In this document: in pieces, positions 34,144-57,643 of the stretch
Layout: each line of letters begins with the position of its first letter
How positions within the stretch are numbered: position 1 is the stretch's first letter
Source: a virus
Strand: one strand, 5' to 3'
IMG/VR virus record: IMGVR_UViG_3300046000_006303
Span: 1 to 60,695 of that record
Length of the DNA stretch: 60,695 bases
Position numbers and translations under genes: made by a program
Notes under the pieces: generated by a model
What the model was told of the DNA's origin: nothing
Databases searched by the model: none
Seen by the model: only the letters and a program-made list of their open reading frames with translations

Positions 34144-34144
34144 A

Positions 34145-35209: not shown

Positions 35210-35214
35210 GTTAA

Positions 35215-35493
35215 TTATATTTTATTTAGTAATTTTTTATATAATAGAGTATTAAACGCTAATTTAAAGGGTATGGATAAATTGTTAGTTCCTTTAGCTC
35301 CTAATTGTTCGTCAATCTCTTCAGGTTCATCCATAATTATTTCTAACATTAACTTAATAGTCTCATATTTAATTATACTAATGGCTGTACCTTCCGTATC
35401 ACCTGATGTGATATTCTTTTTTGTTTTTATTTGGACATAATCATCTATTTTATCCAAATCTACATAGTAGTTTTCTCCTAATACTTTTAACAT
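35215..35493 (-). CDS. Hypothetical small protein
   Basis: 92 residues. An N-terminal beta-rich part (LKVLGENYYVDLDKIDDYVQ) leads into a helical part (ETIKLMLEIIMDEPEEID) and a hydrophobic C-terminal helix. No motif I recognise. It overlaps the end of the upstream HAD-like gene by 7 bases and lies 5 bases before the GT-B gene, so it is translated within the operon. Function unknown. Confidence 0.65.
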   Translation of the reverse strand: MLKVLGENYYVDLDKIDDYVQIKTKKNITSGDTEGTAISIIKYETIKLMLEIIMDEPEEIDEQLGAKGTNNLSIPFKLAFNTLLYKKLLNKI

Positions 35494-36089
35494 TCTAAAA
35501 TTTGTTTTAATTTATCCTCCAATTCTTTTATTGATTTTATAGAATGGATTGTGCTAATATTCTCATTATACTCAGTATCATATTTTATTAATATTTTATC
35601 TGAAGGATATTCCAATAATAAGTCTGGATTTGATGTAAGTAAAATATCAATTTCATCCCACATTGAATTAATTGTTGAATTACTGTAAAATTTCACTTTT
35701 TCTAATTGACAACCAAATTTGGATAAAAAGAACAGTGATGCGGGTTTTGATTTACCTATTTCATCAGAAACTATTAGTAAGTCATTATTATCTCTTAAAG
35801 AGACGTAAACCTCGTTTAAATCAGTAAAAGTATTATATTCTGAAGACTGTGCGTGACCAAAAATTTCCATAGCAAATTCTTCATATAAAAATGAATATAA
35901 TTCATTCTCATCCGGAAATGCGAAATGTTCGTTTAACGTTAAACTGTTTATTGGATAAGTCATCTTATATTCAAAAGAGTCCTCATTCTCTATACCATCT
36001 GTTTTATCAATTAAAAATTTTTGATAAGTTTGTTCAATTTTTCCCAAAGTATTTCTTAATACTCCATTAATTTCTATACCAATTCTCAT
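35487..36089 (-). CDS. HAD-like protein lacking the catalytic aspartates
   Basis: 200 residues. The layout is HAD-like: strand 1 RIGIEINGVLRNT, a cap-type helical insert (about 20-105), LLIVSDEIGKSKPASLFFLS as motifs II and III, and a later acidic strand (MWDEIDILLTSNPDLL). HAD phosphatases need DxD in motif I, and here both positions are changed to E-I-N, so phosphatase activity is unlikely. It may bind a nucleotide or protein instead. It starts 60 bases left of a terminator that ends the PhoH transcript. Confidence 0.7.
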   Translation of the reverse strand: MRIGIEINGVLRNTLGKIEQTYQKFLIDKTDGIENEDSFEYKMTYPINSLTLNEHFAFPDENELYSFLYEEFAMEIFGHAQSSEYNTFTDLNEVYVSLRDNNDLLIVSDEIGKSKPASLFFLSKFGCQLEKVKFYSNSTINSMWDEIDILLTSNPDLLLEYPSDKILIKYDTEYNENISTIHSIKSIKELEDKLKQILEC

Positions 36090-36107
36090 ATCAATAAAAG
36101 TTATATA

Positions 36108-36149
36108 AAAAAAAAGATAAGTAAACTAAAATATAGTTACTTATCTTTT
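36108..36149 (-). terminator. Minus-strand terminator after the PhoH gene
   Basis: Long arms AGATAAGTA(A)ACTA / TAGT(T)ACTTATCT form a stem of about 13 bp, followed on the minus strand by nine or ten T. Also T-rich on the plus side. Confidence 0.88.
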
Positions 36150-36172
36150 CTATTAAATTAGTCTTTTTGAGA

Positions 36173-36916
36173 CTATTTGTCTTCGTATTTTTCTAATATT
36201 TTACTTATTAATGGATTTCTAACAATATCATTTTTATCTTTAAATTCAAATGTTGAAACATAATCATCGTCTCTAAATTTTTCAATTGCGTCCCATAACC
36301 CACTCAATGTTTTATTTTTATATTTATCTGACTGTTCAACATCTCCTGATATAAAAAATTTACTATTATAACCTATTCTTGTTAACAGAAGTTTCATTTG
36401 ACTTGGAGAGGCGTTTTGACCCTCTTCAAATATTAATATTGAGTTATCAATATTCATACCTCTCATAAATGCTAATGCAAATACTTCAATAACTTCAATC
36501 TCTTTAAGTTTTTCTCGACATTCTTTACCAATGATTTTATTTAATAAATAATAAGATGGGAAAATGTATGGGTCTAACTTTTCTTCAACATTACCAGGTA
36601 GTGAACCTAATTTTTCTTCTGCCTCTACAGCCGGTCTAACAATTATTATTTTCTCATAAGGGGTTTTTGGGTCTGAAAGTAAGTCAATCGCTGCTTTCAT
36701 TGTTATATAACTTTTACCGACACCCGCTGGTCCCGAACAAACTGTGATTTCACTGTCAATTAAAGTATCGTAATATTTTTTTTGATTTAAAGTTAAAAAC
36801 TTTTCTTTAGTTTTTCTTTTAATAATTTGAGCAATTAAATCTTTTTTACTTACCGGTTTACCGGTCACTTCCGAGTTCGGAGTTGTTGTTGGTTTCTTTT
36901 TTCGCTGTTCAGCCAT
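36173..36916 (-). CDS. phoH: PhoH-like ATPase
   Basis: 247 residues. Walker A is SGPAGVGKSY (about 61-70), then KIIIVRPAVEAEEKLGSLPG, the family signature after the first helix. Walker B is ILIFEEGQN (about 160-168), where most PhoH proteins have DEAQN. The TRIGYNSKFFISGDVEQSD strand near the end is also typical. PhoH-like genes are frequent in marine phages; their role is a putative RNA- or phosphate-linked ATPase and is not settled. The Pro/Lys-rich first 35 residues are extra. It ends at a strong terminator. Confidence 0.92.
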   Translation of the reverse strand: MAEQRKKKPTTTPNSEVTGKPVSKKDLIAQIIKRKTKEKFLTLNQKKYYDTLIDSEITVCSGPAGVGKSYITMKAAIDLLSDPKTPYEKIIIVRPAVEAEEKLGSLPGNVEEKLDPYIFPSYYLLNKIIGKECREKLKEIEVIEVFALAFMRGMNIDNSILIFEEGQNASPSQMKLLLTRIGYNSKFFISGDVEQSDKYKNKTLSGLWDAIEKFRDDDYVSTFEFKDKNDIVRNPLISKILEKYEDK

Positions 36917-36933
36917 TTTATTTTTTTAATTGT

Positions 36934-37692
36934 TTAGTTGTAAATCTCAACAAATTTTTTTATTTCAGATTCAATATTATCACATTTTAAAACCTCATAT
37001 GTGATTATTTGATTATATCCTAATTTTTTAAGTTCATTTGAGAAATTTATATGTATATCAGGATTTATAATTGGTGTCAATTTTATTTCCGAAATATGTA
37101 TATGATTAATATAGTCATAATACTTACTTAATTCAATAATTGGGTCGTAACCTTCTAATTTTAAGTTATGGGTATCAATCATTGTTTTAATATTAATAAA
37201 TTTATTATTTTTAATAAAATCAACAATTTCTTCTATATTATAAAAATAATTCCCTCCATAAACTTTAGAGTTAGGTTCAATAGTTAGAGTAATACCTGTA
37301 TTGTTAAGTGAATTATCAATCCTTTTAAATATTTTAGATAACGAATCATCAACGATTCCATTTCTAATAGTAGGAGACCCAAAAACCATAACCTTAACCC
37401 CTAATATTTTACATATTTCAATTAGTCTGTCAATATGTTTATAAACTATTTTTGTATCTTTAATTCCATCACATTTAACATCATAAAATATTGACTGAAT
37501 TGACTCCATTTTAATATTGTAAGAGTCTAATTTTTTTTTATACTCTATTAAAATATCGTTAGATAATTTATTCCAGTCATCAATTTTGGTTAGAACACCT
37601 TCAATATTATGAATATTGTTGGTCTTTAATATAGTTAAGATTTGGTCGTTATCGGAGATATCCCACGCTAAGTTACTTAATGATAATTTCAT
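36934..37692 (-). CDS. TIM-barrel sugar isomerase/epimerase-like protein
   Basis: 252 residues. The xylose-isomerase-like AP_endonuc_2 barrel is suggested by KLSLSNLAWDISDNDQIL at strand 1, KVMVFGSPTIRNG, LTIEPNSKVYGG, IKTMIDTHNLKLEG and HIHISEIKLTP, which supply the metal-binding Glu, Asp, His and Glu positions. Such enzymes isomerise or epimerise sugars or sugar phosphates, which fits the surrounding glycosyltransferases as supplier of a donor sugar. An endonuclease IV-type repair enzyme is a less likely alternative given its context. Confidence 0.78.
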   Translation of the reverse strand: MKLSLSNLAWDISDNDQILTILKTNNIHNIEGVLTKIDDWNKLSNDILIEYKKKLDSYNIKMESIQSIFYDVKCDGIKDTKIVYKHIDRLIEICKILGVKVMVFGSPTIRNGIVDDSLSKIFKRIDNSLNNTGITLTIEPNSKVYGGNYFYNIEEIVDFIKNNKFINIKTMIDTHNLKLEGYDPIIELSKYYDYINHIHISEIKLTPIINPDIHINFSNELKKLGYNQIITYEVLKCDNIESEIKKFVEIYN

Positions 37693-37714
37693 ATTTTTAA
37701 TATATTTGTATGAC

Positions 37715-38725
37715 TTAAAATTTAATTTTATTTAAAATAAAATCAACAATTGATAAATCATTCTCATCATATAATAATAAATGTTTTATTTTATTTATAT
37801 TGTCAATTTTTGAATTGATGTTTAATAATTCATTATTTAATACGGTTTCAAAATTATTCTCATTTTTGTTTAAAATTACTGAAATATCTTTGAGATTAAC
37901 TATTCCGTCTAACACTTTTTCATATGTGTTATAGTTGTCGTCAAATATTACCGGTATACATCCAAGTAACAAACTATGATAAAACCCTTTTCTCGATTGT
38001 TTATCTCCATGTGGTTGTAATGAAAAATGACTATTTAAATAAAGCTCATCAATTTCATTGTATGTATCTATATTATTAATACTAATCCATTTATCATCAA
38101 TCACTTTATTTGTGTTTAATACCTCAATATTATTAAAGTAATCAATTTCTTTTCGATATCTACCGGCATAACTTATTAAATGTTTTTTGTTTTGGTTTTT
38201 TGGGACAATATAATCTTTTGGGTTTTGTTTAATGTGGGTACAGTAAGGAACCGGAATTTGATTGTTATCGCTAATTACATCTTCATAACAAACAAAATAA
38301 ATGTTTTCGTGAAAATTAAAATGGTTTAAAAAACATCTATTATCTTCCCACATTACATCTGAATAAGGAATAATAATTTTTTTACCATCATTAACACAGT
38401 TGTTAATTAATGGTAAGATTAAGTTTATTTTATTAAGTATTTGAGTAACATCATAAAAATATTTTTTTGACCATGCGGAGCAAAATAAATAAATGGGGAT
38501 AAATACGACATCAGAATTTTCATAATTATTTATTAACTTTTTGTGTTCTTTAAACATATTGTGTAAAACTACCTCTAAAGAATATTGAGACCGTAAATAT
38601 TTATAGTCGTCAAACTTAATAAAATGATTATCAATTATTTCATTATCATTTATGTGAACTGGTAATAAGTCTGAATTAAAATCAGTGTTAATATTTAATA
38701 TATAAAAACATTTATTATTGGACAT
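37715..38725 (-). CDS. Exostosin-like glycosyltransferase (GT47 type)
   Basis: 336 residues. The C-terminal signature FSLQPHGDKQSRKGFYHSLL followed by GCIPVIFDD is that of the exostosin family (P-x-G-D-x-x-x-R-x-x-x-x-x-x-x-x-GCIPV). The middle has SYAGRYRKEIDYFNN as donor-region strand. Exostosin-like enzymes are best known from eukaryotes, and occur in bacteria, giant viruses and a few phages. No signal peptide or membrane anchor, so it would work in the cytoplasm. A divergent relative starts on the other strand 21 bases away. Confidence 0.82.
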   Translation of the reverse strand: MSNNKCFYILNINTDFNSDLLPVHINDNEIIDNHFIKFDDYKYLRSQYSLEVVLHNMFKEHKKLINNYENSDVVFIPIYLFCSAWSKKYFYDVTQILNKINLILPLINNCVNDGKKIIIPYSDVMWEDNRCFLNHFNFHENIYFVCYEDVISDNNQIPVPYCTHIKQNPKDYIVPKNQNKKHLISYAGRYRKEIDYFNNIEVLNTNKVIDDKWISINNIDTYNEIDELYLNSHFSLQPHGDKQSRKGFYHSLLLGCIPVIFDDNYNTYEKVLDGIVNLKDISVILNKNENNFETVLNNELLNINSKIDNINKIKHLLLYDENDLSIVDFILNKIKF

Positions 38726-38746
38726 ATAAACTTATATTTAATAAGT

Positions 38747-39856
38747 ATGAAGATTTTTATTTATAACATCAAAGAATTAGAAGAAATAATGAAATTTTAT
38801 GAGTCCGTTCCATCTGAAATGGATTTATATAATATGTTTTTGAGTAAGTTAAATTTAAAGTATGAAGTTGTTAGTGATATTAATGATGCCGACATTGCGT
38901 TTATACCTATAGATTTTATTAAACTAATTTACGGAAATATAACACCAGCTAACCATCATATTCTTTATAACCATTTAAAAAATTATGATAAGTACCCTGA
39001 TTTAATACCAACTGTACAACCACCTACGTTTGGTGTTGGTCATAAGGATAATTTTATTAAATTTTTTTGGAATAATTTTGTCAAAAATAACATTAATCCT
39101 GATTTAAAAATTCCGCATTTTATTTTATATAGTTATGTCTTGTTTGAAATTTCTTTTGAACCAATAGATGATAATATATTTATTTTAAGTTATGAGGATG
39201 AGGTTTCTTTTTTTAACACTACCACAACATTTAAAATAGGTACTCATAACAGAATGATTACCATTCCTTATATATTAAATAGAAATATTTCAAAGTCACT
39301 TTCTACTATGGAAAAAATAGTAAGTTGTGAAAAAACACGAGAGTTAACATTTATAGGTGCCTTTAATTCCGACAATTCCGAAGACAGACCATTAATTAAA
39401 AGAATTAGAGATTTTATACTATTATTAAATTCGGAAGTTTATATTGGTAATATGTCAAACATCAACCAAGAATTGATGGATACTAAATATTTGTTTGTTT
39501 TAAGAGGGGACACTCCCACTCGAGTATGTTTTTATCAGTGTTTAGTATACAATATTGTTCCCATAATATTTGAAGAGGAATTATTACTATATCAAAATAT
39601 CTTTACTAAAGATATTGATTTAAAAGAAAGTTGTTTAATTTTACCTAATAAAGGTGGAATGTCCGATATGGAGTATTCAAAAATTGTTGATAACATATTA
39701 AACAAAGAACTATTAGACCCAAATAATTATTTTAATAAAATTAAAAGTCATGAAAGATTATTTAATCAAATTAATTATTTTAGTGATGAGTGTTTACCGA
39801 TAGAAATCTCAATAGGAAAAATAAAATTCAACTATTCTAATAGATTAAGTTTATAA
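38747..39856 (+). CDS. Second exostosin-like glycosyltransferase (GT47 type)
   Basis: 369 residues and the only plus-strand gene of the island. FVLRGDTPTRVCFYQCLV followed by YNIVPIIFEE matches the exostosin signature, with GCIP changed to YNIVP. Upstream, DADIAFIPIDFIKLI and TFIGAFNSDNSEDRPLI are also family-like. It is homologous in layout to the divergent gene at 37715-38725, so the pair may come from an inverted duplication, though they have diverged strongly. The gap between the two starts contains only weak TATTTAAT-like boxes. It ends by overlapping the SDR gene by 6 bases. Confidence 0.8.
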   Translation: MKIFIYNIKELEEIMKFYESVPSEMDLYNMFLSKLNLKYEVVSDINDADIAFIPIDFIKLIYGNITPANHHILYNHLKNYDKYPDLIPTVQPPTFGVGHKDNFIKFFWNNFVKNNINPDLKIPHFILYSYVLFEISFEPIDDNIFILSYEDEVSFFNTTTTFKIGTHNRMITIPYILNRNISKSLSTMEKIVSCEKTRELTFIGAFNSDNSEDRPLIKRIRDFILLLNSEVYIGNMSNINQELMDTKYLFVLRGDTPTRVCFYQCLVYNIVPIIFEEELLLYQNIFTKDIDLKESCLILPNKGGMSDMEYSKIVDNILNKELLDPNNYFNKIKSHERLFNQINYFSDECLPIEISIGKIKFNYSNRLSL

Positions 39857-40609
39857 AATAAATTCGTTTACCAATTTTTTAATTTCATTTAAAACTGTCT
39901 CTTTAGGTTTTATGTATCCGGTTGATGAATATTTGGTTGTATAGTCATACAGTATTTTAATTTCTGAATTAGCGACCTTTTCTTTATGAGATGGAAATAA
40001 ATTAATTATTTCTTCACTTTCTAATGGTTCTGTAAATAAGTTAAATATAACTTCGTTAGGGTGTTTTTCACCATACAAACTTATATCGTCCACTAAATCA
40101 TTTAAATTATACCATTGGAATGAAGAATTTTTATTAATCATATGAATGTTATTATTATGTAATAAATCGTATAATATGTTTTTTTTGATATTTTTACTGA
40201 ACAAAGCGGGTAGTCTAAAAACTTTAACATTCTCGTAGATTAAATGTTTTACCACCATTTTTTCAAAAAGATATCTATTTGAACCATAAGAAAAATCTTT
40301 AAATATAGGGTCAAAGTCTTCATCGACCCCTACAGGTGAATTACCGTATACATCAATAGTTGAGATTACGTATATATTTTTATATTTAACATTACCTATT
40401 AATTTAACGATATCTATGATAGTTTCAATATCCGTCTTTGTATCTTTATTAATTAACCATTTTGTTGACGGTAAACAAGATAAATACAAGTCACACCCAT
40501 CCGGTGGTAAATAACTTTGAATAGATTTTGAATTATATTCAAAATCAAAATTTATACTTTCCTTTAAAGTTTGCCCAACTAATCCAGTATTCCCTATTAA
40601 TATTTTCAT
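39851..40609 (-). CDS. NAD-dependent epimerase/dehydratase-like (SDR) protein
   Basis: 252 residues. The Rossmann start is KILIGNTGLVGQTLKE (GxxGxxG). ISTIDVYGNSPVGVDE corresponds to the strand with catalytic Ser/Thr, and FSYGSNRYLFEK to the YxxxK motif, in which Lys is replaced by Arg. The family converts nucleotide sugars, so it would feed the nearby transferases. It starts by ATGA overlap with the upstream gene's end. The Lys to Arg change may lower or alter activity. Confidence 0.8.
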   Translation of the reverse strand: MKILIGNTGLVGQTLKESINFDFEYNSKSIQSYLPPDGCDLYLSCLPSTKWLINKDTKTDIETIIDIVKLIGNVKYKNIYVISTIDVYGNSPVGVDEDFDPIFKDFSYGSNRYLFEKMVVKHLIYENVKVFRLPALFSKNIKKNILYDLLHNNNIHMINKNSSFQWYNLNDLVDDISLYGEKHPNEVIFNLFTEPLESEEIINLFPSHKEKVANSEIKILYDYTTKYSSTGYIKPKETVLNEIKKLVNEFIL

Positions 40610-41664
40610 CGAACTAAATTTGCTTTAATTTCTTTTGATTCTACTAACATATAATTTTTTAAATGATGTTGTAATAATCTTTCCGGATACGAACAATTAT
40701 AATAATATAGAGAATCTACGTGTCCTTCATGTCCTTTTAAATTATAGTTTCCGTTGTCAAAAAAAGTATTATTAGGAACAATTTTAAATTGTTTTAAATT
40801 TTCTTTAAAAAAAGAATTATTTAATTTATCATAATTACCATATAAATTACAATATTTTTCCATTGAATTTTTACTTCCGTATGCGTATAAATCACATATA
40901 ATATTTGTATGGTCAAAATTATGAACTATTGTTCTATTATGTTTGTAATACATATTATCACAAGCCCAACAAGATGTGCCATAATCCATATGGCTATGTC
41001 CGTTGTCTGAATTAGGTGCAAAAATAATATTGTGGTTTTTTATGTTTGAAATTGTTTTATCACTTAAACTAAACACAGTCATATCACAATCAAATCTAAA
41101 TTTTATGACAACATCATATTCAATATTATTTTCTTTTGAATATTCATCCATTAAGTTATATGATTTATTAACAGAATATAATTGAGATTTAATAAAAACT
41201 TCTGGTGACGAAAAATTAAAATAATGGTGTGTGATTTTTTGAGTTTCAATCCAATCTTTATTATTTTCAATTTCGTATTTTTTTACATTAGTAAATTTAT
41301 TTATTTCAGAAATTACTGAAGTTGGGATGGATTCATCGTTTAATAAAGTTTCTTGTAATAGTGAGTGGTCTTTTAACCCAATGTTATCCCATGTGTGTAT
41401 AAAAACATGATGATTTTCATATTCACAAAATTTATTTATACCCTCTAATATTGAGTTTTTCCTAATATGACCACTTAATAAAATGGCAACCTTTAACTCA
41501 TTTAAATTAATTTTTATCGGTGGTAAGTTTAAATATTCCTTACAATTTAATATTTCATTTTCTAAAAAACTAACTGTTTTTCCTCCATGATTCATTAATT
41601 CGTGATTTGTAAAATTTCTATTTAAATATTTGTTAAATAGAAACGATAATTCTTCATTTGTCAT
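40606..41664 (-). CDS. Probable glycosyltransferase-like protein of unknown family
   Basis: 352 residues. The core begins KVAILLSGHIRKNSILEGIN, then HHVFIHTWDN, and later EYDVVIKFRFDCDM with an R-x-D-x-D feature, and HEGHVDSLYYY. This pattern (A-x-x-x-x-G-H/Q-x-R, F-x-H-T-W, K-x-R-x-D) occurs in predicted capsular-type glycosyltransferases of bacteria and large viruses. I cannot place it in a numbered family by eye. It overlaps both neighbours (ATGA at its end; 11 bases at its start), so it is fully embedded in the operon. Confidence 0.68.
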   Translation of the reverse strand: MTNEELSFLFNKYLNRNFTNHELMNHGGKTVSFLENEILNCKEYLNLPPIKINLNELKVAILLSGHIRKNSILEGINKFCEYENHHVFIHTWDNIGLKDHSLLQETLLNDESIPTSVISEINKFTNVKKYEIENNKDWIETQKITHHYFNFSSPEVFIKSQLYSVNKSYNLMDEYSKENNIEYDVVIKFRFDCDMTVFSLSDKTISNIKNHNIIFAPNSDNGHSHMDYGTSCWACDNMYYKHNRTIVHNFDHTNIICDLYAYGSKNSMEKYCNLYGNYDKLNNSFFKENLKQFKIVPNNTFFDNGNYNLKGHEGHVDSLYYYNCSYPERLLQHHLKNYMLVESKEIKANLVR

Positions 41665-42643
41665 TATTAATTAAATTTAAAATATAATCTTCAATAATAT
41701 AAATTCCTTGTATTTTTCCTGTAAAACATGAAATTATATTATTTGTTTGTTTTATTACTGGATATCGGCTATCCGACTCATCATTTACTTTACTTTTTAT
41801 TGATAAAAAATAAGAATCGTATTTAAAGTATTCATTGAAATTTGGCATAAATGTTATAATTCGATTCTCAAATTCTTTAACTTTATTTAAGATAAATTCA
41901 TTATCTATTAATTTTTTATATTCGTCAATCTCTTCAATGGATGAAAACTTTTTTAATGGTGTTAGTTTTACATCAGTTAATGTAAACTTATTATCCTTAT
42001 AGGGGTAAATAGAAAATAGTTCACCATCAACAAATGTAACAGAATCAAAATTTGTTGTTTTAATTTTATCGTAAATTAATGTTATAGTTAATTCATAAAA
42101 AAAATCGACATTGATTAATCCCATAAAATTATTTGTTGCGTCAATGACTAAATTTGAGTTTTTAGATAATTCTTCTAATTTTACTTCATTAATGGTATCA
42201 TACTTTATTAACCCATTTAATTTTTTTTCAAAATAATTTTTAACTTTTTCAAAATTGATATGTTTTTCATTTGTTAAAATACATCCTTTAGTATTACTAA
42301 AATTATGGGGAATTAATTCAGAGGAACTCTTATCAAAAATTTTTAAATATGTGTTTAAATCAATCAACGATAATTTTTTAGGGACACAATAAAAGTTTTT
42401 ATCAATATCGGTCACACAAAATCCGTAGTCATCAATAAACCTATAAAAAGTTGTTTCACACAAATTCCTTGTTTCATAGTTTCTCGCATAATGATAACCA
42501 TAATGTAATCTATTTTGATTATTATAAGAAGTTCCTTTAAAAATTTCATCATTTTTTTCAATGAGTGTTATTTCGTGGTCGTTTTTTAACTGATTGGCTA
42601 AATGACAACCAACCCATCCACCCCCAATTATTGATATTTTCAT
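41654..42643 (-). CDS. FAD-dependent oxidoreductase-like protein
   Basis: 329 residues. KISIIGGGWVGCHLANQL is a GxGxxG dinucleotide-binding start, and ITLIEKNDEIFKGTSYNNQN corresponds to the acidic strand end plus the segment binding the FAD pyrophosphate. NRLHYGYHYARN follows. SNLVIDATNNFMG is the second nucleotide strand. It could be a UDP-galactopyranose mutase-like or amino-acid-oxidase-like enzyme; the island context favours a sugar-related reaction. Substrate not visible. Confidence 0.75.
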   Translation of the reverse strand: MKISIIGGGWVGCHLANQLKNDHEITLIEKNDEIFKGTSYNNQNRLHYGYHYARNYETRNLCETTFYRFIDDYGFCVTDIDKNFYCVPKKLSLIDLNTYLKIFDKSSSELIPHNFSNTKGCILTNEKHINFEKVKNYFEKKLNGLIKYDTINEVKLEELSKNSNLVIDATNNFMGLINVDFFYELTITLIYDKIKTTNFDSVTFVDGELFSIYPYKDNKFTLTDVKLTPLKKFSSIEEIDEYKKLIDNEFILNKVKEFENRIITFMPNFNEYFKYDSYFLSIKSKVNDESDSRYPVIKQTNNIISCFTGKIQGIYIIEDYILNLINNDK

Positions 42644-42653
42644 ATTATTATTA

Positions 42654-43319
42654 TTATATATTTAGAACCATATTTAAACCTGTTTGACCCCAATTAGATT
42701 TATTTTTATATATGTCTAATGACGGGTAATATTCTGTTCTTCTAATGGTATCTGTTCCATACCAATTATAATTATCAACAACTGACCATTTTGGCATATT
42801 TTCATTGTAAAGTTTTGGTGTAGGCTCAGTTTTCCACATAATGTAATCTTCGTTGGGTACTCCCCATATTTTCCATTTAGACATTGATTCGTTAGAATAA
42901 TCGGAATTTTTAATATTAATTAATTTTTGTTTATTCTCTAAAAGATAACTGTATGAATATAATCCCATAGACATTGACGGGTTTCCCTTTAACGCCATTT
43001 TTACTGGTTTTTCTTCAGGAATAGTATAAAGTAATTCTTTAAATTTCTCACCAACTTTACAAGTGTCGTGAATTAAAAACCAATATTCAGAAACTAATTC
43101 TTTTTCGCAAATTTCAATTAAAGAGCTGTATTCAAATGAGTTATGGTTAAGATTATGATACGTAATTCCGTCAACAGCATTTTTTGAATAACTATCAAAA
43201 CCGGCGTTAAATACGTGAATATCATCTTTATTAATTCCAGAATTTATTAATGTTGGTAATAAAATAGGTAAAGTTTTTTTGTAAAAATTTTTATTTGTTG
43301 ATACCGCGATTTTTATCAT
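42654..43319 (-). CDS. Putative GT-A-like protein
   Basis: 221 residues. It begins KIAVSTNKNFYKKTLPILLP and carries YWFLIHDTCKVGEKF, where a DXD-like element would be expected. KMALKGNPSMSMGLYSYSYL and KIWGVPNEDYIMWKTEP follow. The organisation is that of a short GT-A domain, but no clear DXD exists, so I call it a putative transferase or a non-enzymatic relative. It lies 6 bases from the double GT2 gene and 10 bases from the FAD gene. Confidence 0.6.
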   Translation of the reverse strand: MIKIAVSTNKNFYKKTLPILLPTLINSGINKDDIHVFNAGFDSYSKNAVDGITYHNLNHNSFEYSSLIEICEKELVSEYWFLIHDTCKVGEKFKELLYTIPEEKPVKMALKGNPSMSMGLYSYSYLLENKQKLINIKNSDYSNESMSKWKIWGVPNEDYIMWKTEPTPKLYNENMPKWSVVDNYNWYGTDTIRRTEYYPSLDIYKNKSNWGQTGLNMVLNI

Positions 43320-43325
43320 ATTTCT

Positions 43326-44837
43326 TTATTTTATTATTCGTATATGTGTTTTTAATTTTTCAAAGTTTTTAACAACAAAAGGAAATAAGAAATTATTATA
43401 ATCTTCATTAACTTTTTTCATTTTATCTTTTTCAGTATTTCTAGTTTGACTTTCATAATGATATGAAACTAAATTACTATCACAATAATTATCTAATCCC
43501 ATCATTAAACATTGTAAATTTAATTCAACATCTTCAAAACAAGACTGGTAATTTTCGTTAAAATAATTACACTTAATAAATACATTTTTTTTAATCATGA
43601 GTAATGCCGCTGTTGACCCGATTCCTTTTTTAGTTGTATTAGAAAAATTATAATAGGAAGACAAACCAATGTGAGATAGTTTTAAATGTTTATTATTATC
43701 AATAAGACATAAAATACCGTCATGTTGAATGGTATTATCTTCAAAATGTAATCTACATCCCACAGTACCAACATTAGATTTTGTTTTAAAAATATTTAAC
43801 ATTCCATAGATAACATTATTTAACAATTTAATATCATTATTACAGAATAATAAAAATTCATATTCATCGGTTACGTAATTTTTAACAACATCATTATTAA
43901 TTTTAGCAAAATTATAATAATCATACTCAATCAGTTTTATATTATTGTAATCTTTTATATTATTTTTAACTGTTTCTTTTTCGTCATCTGTTGAACCGGT
44001 GTCGGTAATAAAAATATCAAATAATTCAGGATTACAATTATTATAAAACGAATCAACACATTCTTTTAACATTTCTACATTACCTTTAGTTGGTATAATA
44101 ATTGCGACTTTACCAATATTTTTAATTGGTTTTTCTTTAATCTCCGGAATATATACTTGTTGAGGTTTTAAATCTAATGGTAAAACGTGTTTCCACTTCT
44201 CAACAAATCTATCTCTACTTTCCCAAAATTCTCTATTTGGTTGACCAACTGATTGATGTGTGATTTCAAAGGAAGATGTTACACCAATTTTAATACCGTC
44301 CACATAATTAGGTAAACAGAATAAATGGTCATAAAAATGAAATCTTCCAATTGTTTCGTCAAATTGATGTTTAATTTTTGTTTTATCAAATGAGATAAAT
44401 AACCCATCAATAGTCACCACAGGAATTAAAAATGGTAATTTTGGTGAATATTTACTTAACCATTTGTTTTGTCCGTCGGGGTGGTGATAAACTTGTCCTA
44501 CCATTGTTTGTTGCATACGTTCCCAGTATACCCCTGATTCAGGGAAATAACAAGAACCGGCTTTTCCAATAATACCATATTCAGGATTCTCAGAGTAATC
44601 TTTTAAAAGTTTTTTACCCCACCCATTTTCTAATTTAATATCGTTATGACAACAAACAACAATATCAAAAATTGACTGAGAAATACCTTTGTTGTAAATC
44701 TCAGCTAAACTGAATTCGTTATTGTTTTTGTATTCTAAAATTTGAACATCTTTTAAACCAACAGTTTGTAACAAATGTTGTTTAAATTTGTTATTAAATT
44801 GTTCGTCTTTATGTGTTGAGTATATTACTGTAATCAT
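43326..44837 (-). CDS. Double GT2 glycosyltransferase
   Basis: 503 residues with two GT-A domains. The first (about 1-230) begins MITVIYSTHKDEQFNNKFK and has IVVCCHNDIKLENGWG. The second (about 240-500) begins VAIIIPTKGNVEMLKECVDS, with FITDTGSTDDE, FLLFCNNDIKLLNNV as DXD-like site and YQSCFEDVELNLQCLMMGL as the ED motif. Two linked GT2 domains often build disaccharide units or add two different sugars. The start overlaps the dUTPase end by ATGA, so it is co-expressed with nucleotide-metabolism genes. Confidence 0.84.
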   Translation of the reverse strand: MITVIYSTHKDEQFNNKFKQHLLQTVGLKDVQILEYKNNNEFSLAEIYNKGISQSIFDIVVCCHNDIKLENGWGKKLLKDYSENPEYGIIGKAGSCYFPESGVYWERMQQTMVGQVYHHPDGQNKWLSKYSPKLPFLIPVVTIDGLFISFDKTKIKHQFDETIGRFHFYDHLFCLPNYVDGIKIGVTSSFEITHQSVGQPNREFWESRDRFVEKWKHVLPLDLKPQQVYIPEIKEKPIKNIGKVAIIIPTKGNVEMLKECVDSFYNNCNPELFDIFITDTGSTDDEKETVKNNIKDYNNIKLIEYDYYNFAKINNDVVKNYVTDEYEFLLFCNNDIKLLNNVIYGMLNIFKTKSNVGTVGCRLHFEDNTIQHDGILCLIDNNKHLKLSHIGLSSYYNFSNTTKKGIGSTAALLMIKKNVFIKCNYFNENYQSCFEDVELNLQCLMMGLDNYCDSNLVSYHYESQTRNTEKDKMKKVNEDYNNFLFPFVVKNFEKLKTHIRIIK

Positions 44838-45433
44838 ACTAATCCTGTTGAGCCAAATCCGTTATCTCCTCTTTCTTTATCAGTAACTTTTTCTCTTTGG
44901 TCTAAGTGAACCCATCCCCCATTTACAACAGGACATAATACCGCTTGACCAAATTTCATTCCTTTGTGGATGGTTACTGGATGATTATTGGTATTAAAAA
45001 TAATTCCTTTAACTTCTCCGGTATAACCATTATCAACAGTACCGGGAGAATTTAAAACCATAAGACCTTGATTGATTGCCAAACCACTTTTAGTTCTAAC
45101 TTGAATTTCATATCCATCTTTAATATCAAAGGATAGTCCACTAGGGACTAACGCTCTACCAAAAGCCTCTATGATAACATCTTCAACAGAATGTAAGTCA
45201 AACCCTGAATCACTATCGTAATTATACTTAGGTGTTATTGCGTCGGGATGAATTTTAACAAAACCTAATGGTAATCTTGTTCTTGAATTTAACATATCAT
45301 CTTCAAGTTGTTTTAAATCCAAACCAAATTCACTCATTATCTCGTCATAACTCAAATCATCCAAATCAATATTTGCCAATTTTTTTAATTCTTCGGCTTT
45401 GTTTTTTAAGAAATCTAAATCTTCGCTAAACAT
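44834..45433 (-). CDS. dut: dUTP diphosphatase
   Basis: 199 residues. All five motifs of trimeric dUTPases are visible: DSGFDLH (75-81), RTKSGLA (113-119), GTVDNGYTGE (131-140), GQAVL (162-166) and ERGDNGFGSTG (187-197). The enzyme turns dUTP into dUMP and keeps uracil out of DNA. Motif 2 has TK before SG where most have R-S/P-R-S-G. The first 55 residues are an extra helical extension of unknown use. Its ATG overlaps the stop of the exonuclease (TAATG). Confidence 0.94.
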   Translation of the reverse strand: MFSEDLDFLKNKAEELKKLANIDLDDLSYDEIMSEFGLDLKQLEDDMLNSRTRLPLGFVKIHPDAITPKYNYDSDSGFDLHSVEDVIIEAFGRALVPSGLSFDIKDGYEIQVRTKSGLAINQGLMVLNSPGTVDNGYTGEVKGIIFNTNNHPVTIHKGMKFGQAVLCPVVNGGWVHLDQREKVTDKERGDNGFGSTGLV

Positions 45434-46144: not shown

Positions 46145-47407
46145 TTATTTAATTAAACTTTTATAAAATTCTGCTCTTGTAACCGTAACCTTATTAAGGT
46201 CATATTTGTCTTTTACGGTATTATATAATCGTTCACCTAATTCAGTTATCATTTCAGGGTTTTGAACTAATTTTTTAATTGATTTGGACCAATCACTATG
46301 GTTTCTTGATTCAGGTATTAAAATTGCGTTACCATTATCGTTAAACTCACCATTTTTTAAACAATGAACTAAATCGATGGTGTATGGTCCAATCTCTGAT
46401 GCGATTAACGCTTTCTTATAGAACCCTGCCTCAATTACTTTTAATTGTGATTTCATTCTATTAAAGATATGATTTTTAATTGGTGCCAAAGATATATCAA
46501 ATTTTGAATAATTCATAGCATAAGAACTAACAGGTTTTGTCCAAACTCTAACGTATGGTAATTCTTTATCTGAAATATATTCACCTTCTTTAAATTCCTT
46601 TAAAAATTTAATATAATTTTCGTCTAAAGTTTTATAGTTATTTGTAAAAATTCCTTCATAATTAACCCATACAGTTTCGTGTGGAAGAATATCTCTCTTC
46701 TTTTGTTCTCCGGTAGTTGGATTAATTTCCGTTACAGAACCTCTTGTATCAAACCCACAAATTACATATTGTAATTTATCGTTAATCTCATAATTTTTTT
46801 GAACAAACGAATCTAATAAATTTAAATCGTGTAAGTGAGATGAACCTCCTAACCATCCTATTCTAATTTTATCAGACGGAGGTGTTGGTTGATTAAATTG
46901 TGGCTCTTTAGGGTCAATAGCGTTTGGTAATACCAATACGTTTTTATTAATCTTACGAATTTCATTTGCAAAAATATCTGTAGTGGTAGTTACCCAATCA
47001 GCTTCTTTTAAATTTGCAACAATTTTTTCGTGAATTTTGTTTTGAACAATAATACTATGTATTGGGTGGTCAACCGTAGGTAACCAATAATCATCAATAT
47101 CAATAACAACCACTTTACCAATTGATTTTAGATATTTAACTATTGCGGGTGTTTGGTCATAGTGACTACCGATATTTCTGTGTACATGAATAATTTGATA
47201 TTTATCCCAATATTTCATGTCGTTTATTCTTGGTTCGTAATCGATATCTACGTGGAAGTCATCCGGATATAAGTTTTGTAAAAAAATGTGAGGGTCAATT
47301 GACCTAAATTTACCTGTTGGTTAACCAACGCCCGTACGGTCAGATGGCAGTACAAGTACGCTAATCTTTTCTTGACCGTTAGGGCGTTGAAGTGAGTTTT
47401 GTGACAT
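46145..47407 (-). CDS. GT4-like glycosyltransferase with an in-frame TAA at codon 29 (candidate translational bypass)
   Basis: The obvious start, ATG 47218 (357 residues), is not the natural one: the frame stays open upstream and encodes KFRSIDPHIFLQNLYPDDF, then HVDIDYEPRIND. Beyond a single TAA at 47321-47323 the same frame continues to ATG 47407 with ISVLVLPSDRTGVG, a typical first strand and Gly loop of GT-B enzymes. So the full gene is about 420 codons interrupted once. Joining TGVG to KFRS by leaving out 12 bases restores a sensible enzyme. Later motifs are IRIGWLGGSSHLHDL and FDISLAPIKNHIFNRMKSQL followed by KVIEAG, as in GT4-like enzymes. The first 28 codons are unusually rich in G and C (about half) and use CTG, CGC and ACG, unlike the rest. 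The endonuclease gene overlaps the first codons. Alternatives: a nonsense mutation, readthrough, or use of the internal ATG. Confidence 0.75.
47312..47329 (-). promoter_or_regulatory. Bypass-like element: GGT, stop TAA, CCA ACA, GGT
   Basis: On the minus strand the codons read GGT TAA CCA ACA GGT AAA. The GGT before the stop and the GGT after it are identical, as needed for peptidyl-tRNA take-off and landing. GTTGG-TTAA-CCAAC (47316-47329) can form a 5-bp hairpin whose loop holds the stop. T4 gene 60 has the same parts: matching Gly codons, a stop right after take-off and a hairpin. Function here is inferred. Confidence 0.55.
47326..47389 (-). promoter_or_regulatory. Long-range stem directly 5' of the in-frame stop
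   Basis: The message arms CAACGCCCTAACGGTCA (47373-47389) and TGACCGTACGGGCGTTG (47326-47342) pair over 15 of 17 positions with a 2-base internal loop. The 3' arm ends at the first base of the GGT before the stop. Both arms are coding, so this is strong structure kept inside a gene. Confidence 0.7.
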
Positions 47408-48293
47408 AGTTTTCTATTATGAGTTCTATCAATTTATTGTTGAGTTTAAGGTCTCCCTCCCACACAACTTCTAAATTATAACCATAACTTTTAATTAAGT
47501 CAATTTTCTTTTTATCATAATCCCATAATTCCCAAGCAAACTTACTCTTTTTTTTATTAAAAAAATCTGATTCGTATTTTTTAGGATTACAATGCCAATA
47601 ATCCCCAAAATATTCTATAATTAAATTTAATGATGGAATATACACATCACAAATCTTACTATCAACACGATATGAATGAATTAATTTGTAACCTAGTTGT
47701 TTTATTTCTTTAACAATTTCTTTTTCTCTTTTTGAGACTATTACAGATTTAATTTTACCACTTCTTTGTGTTTGTTTCATTTGTTCTGAAATAACTTTTC
47801 TATCTAAAATACCATTGTCCCAATTTGACCTCATAATATCTCTACTCATTTGACGATATTTTTCTTGTTTCATATGGTTTTGGTTTCCGGTGTATTGACC
47901 TGTTTTACTTTTAGATATTTTTTTAAGACTTTCTTTAGTATGTGTTTTACCAAAAAAAGGATTACCCTTACCAACTTGTAACTTTAATGAACAGGGTTTA
48001 CATAATGAAGTTCCTTTTAATTTATTAAAATGGTTTCTACAAGCAATTACCTTATCTTTTGAGATTGTTTTAATATCTTTATCACAGTTTGGACATTTAC
48101 GGATTACATAATATTTTTTACTATCCTTTTTAATATCTAAAGAAGAACATCTATCCCTTTTTCTTACAAGATTATGTTTATTTAATACTTTAAGAATTGT
48201 AGGTTTTGATAACCCAATAATTTTAACAATTTCTAAACTACTTTTCCCCCTTTTATATTCAAAGATAATTTTTTTTTCAGTATTGATATCCAT
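47379..48293 (-). CDS. Homing endonuclease, EDxHD/Vsr-like with NUMOD-type motifs
   Basis: 304 residues. An N-terminal helix-turn-helix (about 14-45, SLEIVKIIGLSKPTILKVL) is followed by a Cys-rich zinc-ribbon-like part (CPNC at 67-70, CKPC at 98-101) and a NUMOD3-like motif (GKGNPFFGKTHTKESLKKIS). The C-terminal nuclease (about 185-285) has CDVYIPSLNLIIEYFGDYWH, with Asp216, Glu227, Asp231 and His234 in the arrangement of EDxHD (Vsr-related) homing enzymes. It is a free-standing mobile gene inserted upstream of the glycosyltransferase, whose start it overlaps by 29 bases. A box lies before its ATG and the terminator of the upstream gene precedes that. Confidence 0.87.
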   Translation of the reverse strand: MDINTEKKIIFEYKRGKSSLEIVKIIGLSKPTILKVLNKHNLVRKRDRCSSLDIKKDSKKYYVIRKCPNCDKDIKTISKDKVIACRNHFNKLKGTSLCKPCSLKLQVGKGNPFFGKTHTKESLKKISKSKTGQYTGNQNHMKQEKYRQMSRDIMRSNWDNGILDRKVISEQMKQTQRSGKIKSVIVSKREKEIVKEIKQLGYKLIHSYRVDSKICDVYIPSLNLIIEYFGDYWHCNPKKYESDFFNKKKSKFAWELWDYDKKKIDLIKSYGYNLEVVWEGDLKLNNKLIELIIENYVTKLTSTP

Positions 48294-48308
48294 AACTTAA
48301 TCTTTATA

Positions 48309-48316
48309 GATAAATA
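48309..48316 (-). promoter_or_regulatory. TATTTATC box (minus strand), candidate late promoter
   Basis: Minus strand reads TATTTATC 15 bases before the endonuclease ATG, so the mobile gene appears to use the phage's own box. Confidence 0.4.
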
Positions 48317-48351
48317 TACCGGTTTAATCAAAAGGAAAGTTTTTAAGAAAT

Positions 48352-48386
48352 AAAAAACCCCTTAAGTTTCCTTAGGGGGTTTTAAT
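48352..48386 (-). terminator. Rho-independent terminator
   Basis: Arms AACCCCTTAAG / CTTAGGGGGTT (11 bp with one G-U), loop TTTC, with a T-rich flank on the minus strand. It ends the gene at 48405-48998 and separates it from the endonuclease gene. Confidence 0.87.
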
Positions 48387-48404
48387 TTTTAGAGTAAATA
48401 AAGT

Positions 48405-54262: not shown

Positions 54263-57200
54263 ATGGCAAATATACCTATTTCACAGTTACCTCAAGCGTT
54301 TTCGGCATACCCGGAATCACTATTAGTTATAGTAAACTATGACCTGGTACCTACAGGGCAAACAAATTACATATATTTTTCAGCTTTAACTGCTCAATTT
54401 ACGTCAGGTACGTCAGGTACGTCAGGCACAAGTGGAAAAGGGTTCAATTGGAAAGGTATTTGGTCATCATCTGTTAATTATATAGAAGGTGATGTAGTTT
54501 TTTATAGTGGTAGTTCATATGTTGCCACAACAACAATACCTTCAGGTGGTTCTTCACCTGACACTAATTTCAATTGGGGTTTAATAGCACAAGCAGGTAC
54601 AAGTGGTACAGATGGTACTTCAGGCACCAGCGGAAGTGATGGTACTTCAGGTACTAGCGGAACAGATGGAACTTCAGGAACTTCAGGAACTAGCGGTACA
54701 TCAGGAACTAGCGGTACATCAGGAACTAGCGGTACATCAGGAACTAGCGGAAGTGATGGAACTTCAGGAACTAGCGGAAGTGATGGAACTTCAGGAACTT
54801 CAGGTACTAGCGGAACAAATGGAACTTCAGGAACTAGCGGTACATCAGGAACTAGCGGAAGTGATGGTACTTCGGGAAGTGATGGAACTTCAGGGACTAG
54901 CGGAACAGATGGAACTTCAGGAACTAGCGGTACGGATGGAACTTCAGGGACTAGCGGTACGGATGGAACTTCAGGAACTAGCGGTACATCAGGTACTAGC
55001 GGTTTGAGTGGTGTTAATGGAACTTCAGGGACAAGTGGTACAGATGGAACTTCAGGGACAAGTGGTACAGATGGAACTTCAGGTACTAGCGGAAGTGATG
55101 GAACTTCAGGCACAAGTGGTACGTCAGGAACTAGCGGGACAGATGGAACTTCAGGTACGGACGGAACTTCAGGGACTAGCGGGACGGATGGTACATCAGG
55201 AACTAGCGGAAGTGATGGAACTTCAGGTACATCAGGAACTTCAGGAACGGACGGAACTTCAGGAACTAGCGGTACGGATGGAACTTCAGGCACTAGCGGT
55301 ACGGACGGAACTTCAGGAACTAGCGGTACGGACGGAACTTCAGGAACTAGCGGTACGGATGGTACATCAGGAACTAGTGGTACGGATGGAACTTCAGGAA
55401 CTAGCGGGACGGATGGTACATCAGGAACTAGCGGAAGTGATGGAACATCAGGAACTTCGGGTACAGATGGTACATCGGGTACTAGCGGGACAGATGGTAC
55501 ATCAGGAACTAGCGGAACAGATGGAACTAGTGGGACATCAGGAACTAGCGGTACGGACGGAACTTCAGGAACTAGCGGTACGGATGGTACATCGGGTACT
55601 TCGGGAACAGATGGAACTTCAGGAACTAGCGGTACGGATGGAACTTCGGGTACTTCGGGTACAGATGGGACTTCAGGAAGTGATGGAACATCGGGTACCA
55701 GCGGGACAGACGGAACTTCAGGTACTTCGGGAACAGATGGAACTTCAGGTACTTCGGGAACAGATGGAACTTCAGGTACAAGTGGTACATCAGGAACTAG
55801 CGGAAGTGATGGAACTTCAGGTACAAGTGGTACGGATGGTACATCAGGAACTTCGGGAACGGATGGTACTTCAGGAACTAGCGGAACAGATGGTACTTCA
55901 GGAACAGATGGAACTAGTGGGACATCAGGAACTAGCGGACTAAGTGGTGTTAATGGAACTTCAGGTACTAGCGGAACAGACGGAACTTCAGGTACTAGCG
56001 GAACAGACGGAACTTCAGGAACTTCAGGGACTAGCGGTACGGATGGAACTTCAGGTACTAGCGGAACAGATGGTACATCAGGTACAAGTGGTACATCAGG
56101 AACGGACGGAACTTCAGGAACTAGCGGTACAGATGGAACTTCAGGTACATCAGGAACTAGCGGTACGGATGGAACTTCAGGTACAAGTGGTACGGATGGT
56201 ACATCAGGTACAAGCGGTACGGATGGTACATCAGGAACTAGCGGTACGGATGGAACTTCAGGAACTAGCGGTACAGATGGTACATCAGGAACTAGCGGAA
56301 CAGACGGAACTTCAGGTACTAGCGGAACAGATGGAACTTCAGGTACAAGTGGTACGGATGGAACTTCAGGAACTAGCGGTACAGATGGTACATCAGGAAC
56401 TAGCGGTACAGATGGTACATCAGGAACTAGCGGAACAGACGGAACTTCAGGAACTTCAGGAACAGATGGAACTTCAGGTACAAGTGGTACGGATGGAACT
56501 TCAGGAACTAGCGGTACAGATGGTACATCAGGAACTAGCGGAACAGACGGAACTTCAGGTACTAGCGGAACAGATGGTACATCGGGAACTTCAGGAACAG
56601 ATGGAACTTCAGGTACAAGTGGTACGGATGGAACTTCAGGTACAAGCGGTACGGATGGAACTTCAGGTACAAGTGGTACGGATGGAACTTCAGGTACAAG
56701 TGGTACGGATGGTACATCAGGTACAAGCGGTACGGATGGAACTTCAGGTACAAGTGGTACGGATGGTACATCAGGTACAAGCGGTACGGATGGTACATCA
56801 GGAACTAGCGGAACAGACGGTACATCAGGAACTAGCGGAACAGACGGAACTTCAGGAACAGATGGTACATCGGGAACTTCAGGAACAGATGGAACTTCAG
56901 GTACAAGTGGTACGGATGGAACTTCAGGTACAAGTGGTACGGATGGTACATCAGGTACAAGCGGTACGGATGGAACTTCAGGAACTAGCGGTACAGATGG
57001 TACATCAGGAACTAGCGGAACAGACGGAACTTCAGGAACAGATGGTACATCGGGAACTTCAGGAACAGATGGAACTTCAGGTACAAGTGGTACGGATGGA
57101 ACTTCAGGAACTAGCGGATTAAGTGGTGTTAATGGAACTTCAGGAACTAGCGGTACGGATGGTACTTCAGGTACAAGTGGAACTTCAGGAACGAGTGGTA

Positions 57201-57643
57201 CAGGATTTAATACAGTTCAAAATCCTGCATTAACAAGAGTTTTAACTTCGGATGGAACAACTAATGGAGCAATTGCTCAATCAGGTTTAACATATGACGG
57301 TAATTCGTTAATAATACTTGGTAACCAATTTATTGAATCTCAATCAGGTTCATCTATTAGTACGACGGGAGTTACAATAACAACGTTACCAACTTCAACA
57401 GGTTCAAGTGCGTATTTTGAATATGTAATAAAAGATGGGTCAGGATATATGAGAGCAGGTTTTGTAATGGCTGTTTGGGATAGTTCATCAGCAACATATA
57501 CAGATGTATCAACACCGGATTTGAATGGTTCAACATTAGGATTGACATTTACTGTTACAGTCAGTGCTCCAAATGTTTTACTCAAGGCAAACGTAACGTC
57601 AGGGACTTGGACGGTCAAGGTCGGAACAAGAATAATATTTTAA
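54263..57643 (+). CDS. Collagen-like fibre protein, Gly-Thr-Ser/Asp repeats
   Basis: 1126 residues. The N-terminal domain (about 1-110) begins MANIPISQLPQAFSAYPESL and holds GFNWKGIWSSSVNYIEGD followed by VVFYSGSSYVA, which resembles a small carbohydrate-binding (ChtBD3/CBM5-12-like) module. Residues about 112-980 are Gly-X-Y triplets, nearly all GTS or GTD, with a few GTN and the inset GLSGVNGTSG. Collagen-like triplets form trimeric stalks; here Pro is absent and Thr fills the X position, giving hundreds of hydroxyls that could carry sugars. The C-terminal domain (about 985-1126) is beta-rich with AYFEYVIKDGSGYMRAG and probably trimerises or binds the receptor. ATG has a box and an inverted repeat upstream. 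Confidence 0.85.
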   Translation: MANIPISQLPQAFSAYPESLLVIVNYDLVPTGQTNYIYFSALTAQFTSGTSGTSGTSGKGFNWKGIWSSSVNYIEGDVVFYSGSSYVATTTIPSGGSSPDTNFNWGLIAQAGTSGTDGTSGTSGSDGTSGTSGTDGTSGTSGTSGTSGTSGTSGTSGTSGTSGSDGTSGTSGSDGTSGTSGTSGTNGTSGTSGTSGTSGSDGTSGSDGTSGTSGTDGTSGTSGTDGTSGTSGTDGTSGTSGTSGTSGLSGVNGTSGTSGTDGTSGTSGTDGTSGTSGSDGTSGTSGTSGTSGTDGTSGTDGTSGTSGTDGTSGTSGSDGTSGTSGTSGTDGTSGTSGTDGTSGTSGTDGTSGTSGTDGTSGTSGTDGTSGTSGTDGTSGTSGTDGTSGTSGSDGTSGTSGTDGTSGTSGTDGTSGTSGTDGTSGTSGTSGTDGTSGTSGTDGTSGTSGTDGTSGTSGTDGTSGTSGTDGTSGSDGTSGTSGTDGTSGTSGTDGTSGTSGTDGTSGTSGTSGTSGSDGTSGTSGTDGTSGTSGTDGTSGTSGTDGTSGTDGTSGTSGTSGLSGVNGTSGTSGTDGTSGTSGTDGTSGTSGTSGTDGTSGTSGTDGTSGTSGTSGTDGTSGTSGTDGTSGTSGTSGTDGTSGTSGTDGTSGTSGTDGTSGTSGTDGTSGTSGTDGTSGTSGTDGTSGTSGTDGTSGTSGTDGTSGTSGTDGTSGTSGTDGTSGTSGTDGTSGTSGTDGTSGTSGTDGTSGTSGTDGTSGTSGTDGTSGTSGTDGTSGTSGTDGTSGTSGTDGTSGTSGTDGTSGTSGTDGTSGTSGTDGTSGTSGTDGTSGTSGTDGTSGTSGTDGTSGTSGTDGTSGTSGTDGTSGTDGTSGTSGTDGTSGTSGTDGTSGTSGTDGTSGTSGTDGTSGTSGTDGTSGTSGTDGTSGTDGTSGTSGTDGTSGTSGTDGTSGTSGLSGVNGTSGTSGTDGTSGTSGTSGTSGTGFNTVQNPALTRVLTSDGTTNGAIAQSGLTYDGNSLIILGNQFIESQSGSSISTTGVTITTLPTSTGSSAYFEYVIKDGSGYMRAGFVMAVWDSSSATYTDVSTPDLNGSTLGLTFTVTVSAPNVLLKANVTSGTWTVKVGTRIIF
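54596..57206 (+). repeat. Coding repeat for Gly-Thr-Ser/Asp triplets
   Basis: About 2.6 kb of 9-base triplet-coding units (GGAACTAGC, GGTACATCA, GGAACAGAT and silent variants). The unit GTSGTD is repeated many times with varying silent changes. Copy number from short reads is uncertain. Confidence 0.9.

Follow-up and report, generated by a model that had tools for sequence, protein, structure and literature searches.

A candidate family of very short translational bypass sites within a mobile homing-endonuclease cassette of viral glycosyltransferase genes

An interrupted glycosyltransferase gene

Does a stop codon near the start of a viral glycosyltransferase gene silence the gene, or does the ribosome pass over it? 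The question is raised by a 60,695-nt virus sequence from IMG/VR (record IMGVR_UViG_3300046000_006303; hereafter, the window), in which the minus-strand frame running from ATG 47407 to TAA 46147-46145 has a single internal stop, TAA 47323-47321. The codons around this stop are ACG GGC GTT GGT TAA CCA ACA GGT AAA TTT AGG, with GGT codons on both sides of it, 12 nt apart. When the 12 nt that begin with the stop and end with the second GGT are left out, the frame encodes TGVG-KFRSIDPH, as the uninterrupted relatives do (MKEKINVLVLPSDKTGVGKFRSIDPH). An original prediction, made from the window alone, had proposed a translational hop at this point. Translation of 47407-46145 bore out its claim that the frame is broken only by this TAA; the matching Gly codons that it saw flanking the gap are GGT 47326-47324 and GGT 47314-47312, and the natural glycosyltransferase N-terminus that it expected from omission of the 12 bases recurs as the same TGVG-KFRS in uninterrupted homologues. 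The interrupted gene comprises the following features:

47324-47407, minus strand: first glycosyltransferase coding segment, MSQNSLQRPNGQEKISVLVLPSDRTGVG, with a cassette-specific N-terminal extension (translation)
47324-47326, minus strand: predicted take-off codon GGT (Gly), from alignment with uninterrupted homologues (TGVG/KFRS)
47315-47323, minus strand: putative untranslated gap TAACCAACA, with the stop TAA at 47323-47321, missing from uninterrupted relatives
47312-47314, minus strand: predicted landing codon GGT, the matched codon, at which homology to the uninterrupted allele restarts
46145-47311, minus strand: second coding segment from KFRSIDPH, the body of a GT-B glycosyltransferase with its stop codon (PHROG 7162, GT-B model)

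The second segment matches the PHROG family 7162 (glycosyltransferase, E 1e-43), and the predicted structure of an uninterrupted homologue, L003, is a GT-B fold with BshA, GlgM and MshA as the best PDB matches; a search of PDB sequences with the glycosyltransferase profile gave no match. In the model (moderate confidence, pLDDT 73), the hop junction falls where the first helix begins after beta-1, a position at which extra residues would probably do harm. The standard genetic code is in use, since TAA, TGA and TAG all end ordinary ORFs (47, 6 and 2 in the window, respectively) and Trp is encoded by TGG; thus, an altered code was rejected. A single assembly error was ruled out as well, because the same interrupted allele recurs in two other metagenome contigs, L001 and L002, in which the 12-base insert was found on the search of other genomes suggested by the original prediction. 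The small GTTGG/CCAAC hairpin noted there around the stop is real in the window but absent from relatives (L020, TTAACAAAAC; L070, TTAAATCAA); judged by this comparison it is probably incidental, and a hairpin in the gap was dismissed as a signal common to the family.

Interrupted and uninterrupted relatives

IMG/VR was searched with the protein, a GGN-stop-gap-GGN pattern, an endonuclease profile, a Ser-type pattern and the glycosyltransferase from a Ser-type allele. After removal of duplicates, these searches yielded 42 distinct interrupted alleles and 83 uninterrupted ones, the latter found in response to the proposal that homologues be searched for an uninterrupted TGVG(K/Y)FRS. Several pattern-search matches were unrelated chance hits. 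All collections are metagenomic, and the 42 interrupted alleles are related through a mobile cassette rather than being 42 independent cases. The annotated phages searched gave distant glycosyltransferase and nuclease matches only, and the inspected stretch of one of them, LR756501, contains no hop site.

The interrupted alleles have several features in common: (i) the interruption point is identical in all of them, between the same two residues, (ii) the stop directly follows the take-off codon in 42 of 42 alleles, which is also the criterion by which they were collected, (iii) the take-off and landing codons share their first two bases in 41 of 42 alleles (GGN/GGN or AGY/AGY), and (iv) the hop would restore the sequence of the uninterrupted homologues in every case. 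The codon pairs of the GVS lineages are AGC/AGC, AGT/AGC, AGC/AGT and, once, AGT/GGC, and the intact relatives of these Ser-type alleles read GVS/YFRS, as expected from a hop. The sole exception to codon matching is L160 (3965-3980), with AGT as the take-off and GGC as the landing codon; a tRNA-Ser with the anticodon GCU could land on GGC by a G.U pair at the first position.

Other properties of the site vary. The distances from take-off to landing are 5 nt (3 alleles), 6 nt (25), 7 nt (3), 8 nt (2), 9 nt (1), 11 nt (5), 12 nt (2) and 13 nt (1), with all three frames represented, and the stop is UGA in 24 alleles, UAA in 17 and UAG in one. L070 and L089 carry the exact leader peptide of the window together with an 11-nt gap, and this comparison indicates that the gap tolerates a change of 1 nt. 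The same hop site was also observed in a longer glycosyltransferase of about 770 aa (L161, L162, L165, L171 and L180).

A conserved RNA stem upstream of the take-off codon

RNA folding and covariation place two paired segments in the N-terminal extension:

47382-47390, minus strand: 5' arm of the lower stem (TCAACGCCC)
47325-47333, minus strand: 3' arm of the lower stem (GGGCGTTGG), extending into the take-off codon

In the window, the pairing of 47390-47382 with 47333-47325 is continued by ACGGTC/GACCGT, and the lower helix extends to the first base of the take-off codon. The folding energy of this stem is -27.3, as compared with a mean of -12.0 (sd 2.8) for 200 synonymous recodings. The leader has 26-29 residues in all interrupted alleles and mostly 17-20 in uninterrupted ones; the additional codons are paired with the stretch immediately 5' of the take-off codon. 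This N-terminal extension is present in all interrupted alleles and, among uninterrupted ones, as a single remnant in L256 (about 2400-2510), which has a cassette-type leader (MNKIKNIITPVSHK), no gap and a decayed stem, and which we interpret as a natural gap-free recombinant. The ranges of hairpin energies do not overlap (-25.1 to -35.4 for interrupted and -1.9 to -15.6 for uninterrupted alleles), and length-matched control folding gave a mean of -8.6 and an extreme of -17.9. The 75 nt after landing have similar folding energies in both groups (-8.3 interrupted, -8.9 uninterrupted), revealing no 3' structure.

The stem covaries among the relatives. At position -7 all six pair types were observed (G:C, C:G, U:A, A:U, G:U and U:G; paired in 38 of 39), at position -4 the pairs are C:G, G:C and A:U (39 of 39), and at position -1 they are U:A, A:U, C:G and G:C. 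The reading frame of the 5' arm differs between cassettes; for this reason paired positions are out of register when the leaders are aligned with MAFFT, and the pairs were taken from individual folds anchored on the -6 pair. Shuffling of 5' arms between sequences (2,000 trials, relatedness uncontrolled) gave a mean pairing of 0.771 and a maximum of 0.815 versus the observed 0.87. Despite the relatedness in this test, opposite changes at third codon positions make the pairing hard to explain otherwise. The different reading frames of the 5' arm suggest that the RNA is what is kept, and the frequent G.U pairs point to RNA rather than DNA hairpins. Thus, the upstream stem ending at the take-off codon, as originally described for the window, folds there and is conserved and covarying in the relatives.

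A mobile cassette with a homing endonuclease

The recoded 5' end of the glycosyltransferase gene lies within a larger unit defined by the following features:

47379-48293, minus strand: homing endonuclease of 304 aa with a NUMOD3 motif and an I-Bth0305I/Vsr-like C-terminal nuclease domain (ORF, Pfam, PHROG, fold)
47315-48342, minus strand: mobile cassette consisting of the endonuclease, the recoded 5' end of the glycosyltransferase gene and the stop gap (BLASTN versus L003/L010)

The endonuclease ORF matches NUMOD3 in Pfam (E 8.6e-7) and homing endonucleases in PHROG. Its predicted nuclease fold resembles the catalytic domain of I-Bth0305I (3r3p, Foldseek probability 1.00, TMt 0.78) and Vsr (1vsr, TMt 0.58; also 1cw0), with Foldseek E-values of only 4e-3 to 1e-2. 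The cassette is about 1 kb long and takes the place of about 0.1 kb of the uninterrupted allele. BLASTN homology to L003 and L010 ends at 48343-48348 and restarts at 47314-47315, at the landing codon (48348 and 47314 for L003); thus, the unit appears to bring the nuclease, the recoded 5' part of its target and the gap together. The nearest relative, L003, is without the cassette, and this comparison indicates a recent acquisition in the window. The feature had originally been confined to 47219-47407; the interruption within this range is real, but the element reaches upstream to about 48342 and includes the homing-endonuclease gene. A strong terminator-like hairpin (CCCCCTAAGGAAACTTAAGGGG followed by a T-run) is located exactly at the upstream border of the cassette (48345-48391).

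Nuclease sequence was found next to 36 of the 42 interrupted alleles and next to 16 of 80 uninterrupted ones, a linkage that partly reflects how the loci were collected; searches of genome contigs gave remote endonuclease relatives only. The label of an allele, hop or intact, switches 17 times on the glycosyltransferase tree, with at least 14 of the switches forced by well supported branches. Three alleles keep the hop with nuclease remnants only (L033, L077 and L089), two with no nuclease found (L058 and L096), and the nucleases of L130 and L136 contain stops within the matched stretch, which argues that the hop is stable without the nuclease. Among uninterrupted glycosyltransferase genes, the residue before PSD is changed (VLVTPSD/VLVAPSD) in 7 of 16 genes with a related upstream endonuclease and in 0 of 64 genes without one (loci L032, L024, L137-L151 and L181), as if the target were protected by substitution, not by a hop.

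Two further regions of the window are of note. Several more sugar-related genes, glycosyltransferase-like and epimerase-like by eye, lie beside the hop gene (33337-45433), suggesting a surface or DNA glycan pathway. An ORF of 1,126 aa (54263-57643) consists almost wholly of GTSGTDGTSGTSG repeats and probably encodes a tail or collagen-like fibre protein.

Selection on the downstream segment and alternative explanations

Codons 1-28 after landing have a pN/pS of 0.22 among interrupted alleles; because the cassette is mobile, this value alone could reflect selection that acted before insertion. Sister alleles with a shared out-of-frame gap are a stronger test. The dN/dS is 0.02-0.05 over 388 codons, at dS up to 0.28, for L068, L098 and L127 (13 nt, one clade), 0.06 at dS 0.62 for the pair L070/L089 (11 nt), and 0.08 at dS 0.88 for L054/L096 (11 nt, no endonuclease detected). 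The downstream ORF is full-length in every interrupted allele whose contig allows this to be seen.

These data bear on the three alternatives that the original prediction had listed, all of which were rejected, and on a further one. If the stop were decoded, by readthrough or a suppressor tRNA, 2 to 4 extra residues would be inserted (G-X-P-T-G in the window). The 6-, 9- and 12-nt gaps are in frame (28 of 42 alleles), and the 6-nt UGA type on its own could be read in this way; however, the 5-, 7-, 8-, 11- and 13-nt gaps of the other 14 alleles are out of frame, a second in-frame TAA is present in the 13-nt gap, all three stops serve as ordinary terminators with TGG for Trp, the inserts would hit the start of helix 1 beside the invariant GVG-(K/Y)(F/Y)RS, and the matched flanking codons are left unexplained. 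L070 and L089, with the leader of the window and an 11-nt gap, amount to an indel experiment done by nature, in which readthrough would have failed; we consider readthrough very unlikely. Single frameshifts were rejected, as they cannot restore the uninterrupted sequence and the out-of-frame gaps would need plus or minus one-base shifts. A nonsense-mutated, non-functional copy of a dispensable gene, with the insert as a scar of endonuclease activity, would agree with the position of the insert next to the endonuclease and with the recent acquisition of a cassette that L003 lacks. The purifying selection among sister interrupted alleles (dN/dS 0.02-0.08), the full-length downstream ORFs, the covarying stem specific to interrupted alleles and the matched codons in 41 of 42 make such decay still less probable.

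Production of two proteins, a 28-aa leader peptide and a glycosyltransferase restarted downstream, is conceivable in the window, where an ATG is present at 47218, but for many interrupted alleles no ATG was seen within 60 codons of landing, or its position is very different. Moreover, codons 1-28 after landing, which precede such a start, are conserved, and a restart would delete beta-1, helix 1 and the conserved GVG-KFRS of the GT-B fold; we find this reading scarcely credible. Removal of the gap from RNA or DNA, by a tiny intron, editing or programmed deletion, would result in the uninterrupted sequence too. Nevertheless, no Rfam intron match was obtained, the 2-10 nt between the codons correspond to no known splicing mechanism, and the need for a landing codon that matches the take-off anticodon is characteristic of tRNA re-pairing; this is the least probable explanation of all. 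Only re-pairing of the peptidyl-tRNA at a matching codon gives one product in all alleles, which argues for hopping. Thus, a programmed, very short translational bypass within a mobile homing-endonuclease cassette is very probably what the locus encodes.

Proposed mechanism

The sequences themselves show the gaps, the matched codons, the covarying stem, the purifying selection, the linkage to the endonuclease and the borders of the cassette; that ribosomes hop, and how efficiently, is inferred from them, as are the spring role of the stem and the protection from cleavage. In the proposed bypass, the ribosome would read 28 codons until GGT occupies the P site and UAA the A site; the peptidyl-tRNA-Gly would then release, slide 12 nt and re-pair with the landing GGT, and decoding would restart at AAA to give TGVG-KFRS, as in the uninterrupted homologues. 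The cis signal would be the covarying RNA stem, in which the N-terminal extension pairs with the codons that lead up to take-off. Refolding of this stem behind the ribosome probably acts, by analogy with the 5' stem-loop of T4, as a spring that pulls the mRNA forward. The cassette replaces the resident 5' end of its target gene, its gap most likely destroying the target of the endonuclease and hopping keeping the gene active. The gap most likely exists to protect the cassette from its own nuclease, given where it lies, at the cassette end, and the T4 precedent; that related endonucleases are also found next to uninterrupted genes counts against this.

Comparison with known bypassing systems

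The site resembles that of T4 gene 60 in its matched Gly codons, a stop right after take-off, a gap near the 5' end of the gene, an upstream stem able to refold behind the ribosome and a homing endonuclease gene upstream (PMC3014915, PMC5009743, PMC11194080). The two differ in most other respects. T4 gene 60 has a 50-nt gap, a take-off hairpin, a KKYK nascent peptide and a 3' stem, whereas the distances in the glycosyltransferase alleles are 5-13 nt and many of the gaps are too short for a hairpin. KKYK is absent from all the 26-29-residue leaders of interrupted alleles, although another peptide signal is possible. The target gene and the nuclease type are unrelated to those of the T4 cassette, and take-off occurs at Ser as well as Gly codons. 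Since the gap hairpin, KKYK and any sequence relation to T4 are lacking, the glycosyltransferase hop site is not a member of the T4 gene 60 element. Thus, the independent and very short bypass element that had been proposed for the window gains support from the gaps in relatives, the codon matching, the covarying stem and the purifying selection; by these comparisons, it is far shorter than that of T4 and uses other signals.

T4 mobA and gene 60 were reportedly described as a mobile cassette by Bonocora et al. in 2011. The T4 mobA product is an HNH endonuclease, apparently defective in T4. Here, too, a homing endonuclease and a bypass element are neighbours, and the insert is proposed to shield the target; in contrast to mobA, the nuclease gene, of the I-Bth0305I/Vsr-like type, is in most cases an open ORF, and there are dozens of alleles with clear exchange between phages. 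The proposed protective role of the gene 60 insert is mentioned in PMC5009743. Synthetic "stop-hops" in Escherichia coli are laboratory constructs with matched codons flanking a stop (PMC5009743). The 6-nt alleles (GGC UGA GGU) are arranged in just this way, with 9 nt encoding one amino acid; unlike the constructs, the natural site is accompanied by a conserved stem. According to a 2016 review, no natural in-frame stop-hop was known, and shorter-distance counterparts of bypassing had long been presumed to exist (PMC5009743). A search of open-access journal papers found no later report of a natural stop-hop; the window and its relatives seem to be the first natural family of stop-hops as short as these. 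The byp elements of Magnusiomyces capitatus mitochondria are similar in that inserts occur in many places and are tolerated by ribosome jumping; however, according to their description, they do not depend on the mRNA context, and their codons, in a relaxed mitochondrial system, are often mismatched, whereas the glycosyltransferase site has matched codons and a conserved RNA stem.

Implications

To our knowledge, T4 gene 60 was for decades the only well-proven natural example of efficient bypassing in bacteria and phages, and its complexity (a nascent peptide, a gap hairpin and several stems) obscured what is essential. The present family offers dozens of natural alleles at one site, together with uninterrupted controls. 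Among the alleles, evolution has varied the stem, the codon pair, the stop codon and both the length and the frame of the gap. With this family, what ribosome hopping minimally requires can be tested directly. We consider it reasonably likely that an RNA stem in front of a Gly or Ser codon and a stop is a transferable cis element, by which bacterial ribosomes may pass over the stop to a matching codon 5-13 nt away in any frame, and that homing endonucleases repeatedly used it as an expression-neutral way to destroy their own target site. The family suggests that bypass elements evolve repeatedly as harmless self-immunity devices of homing endonucleases, in genes that would be miscalled as broken by gene finders.
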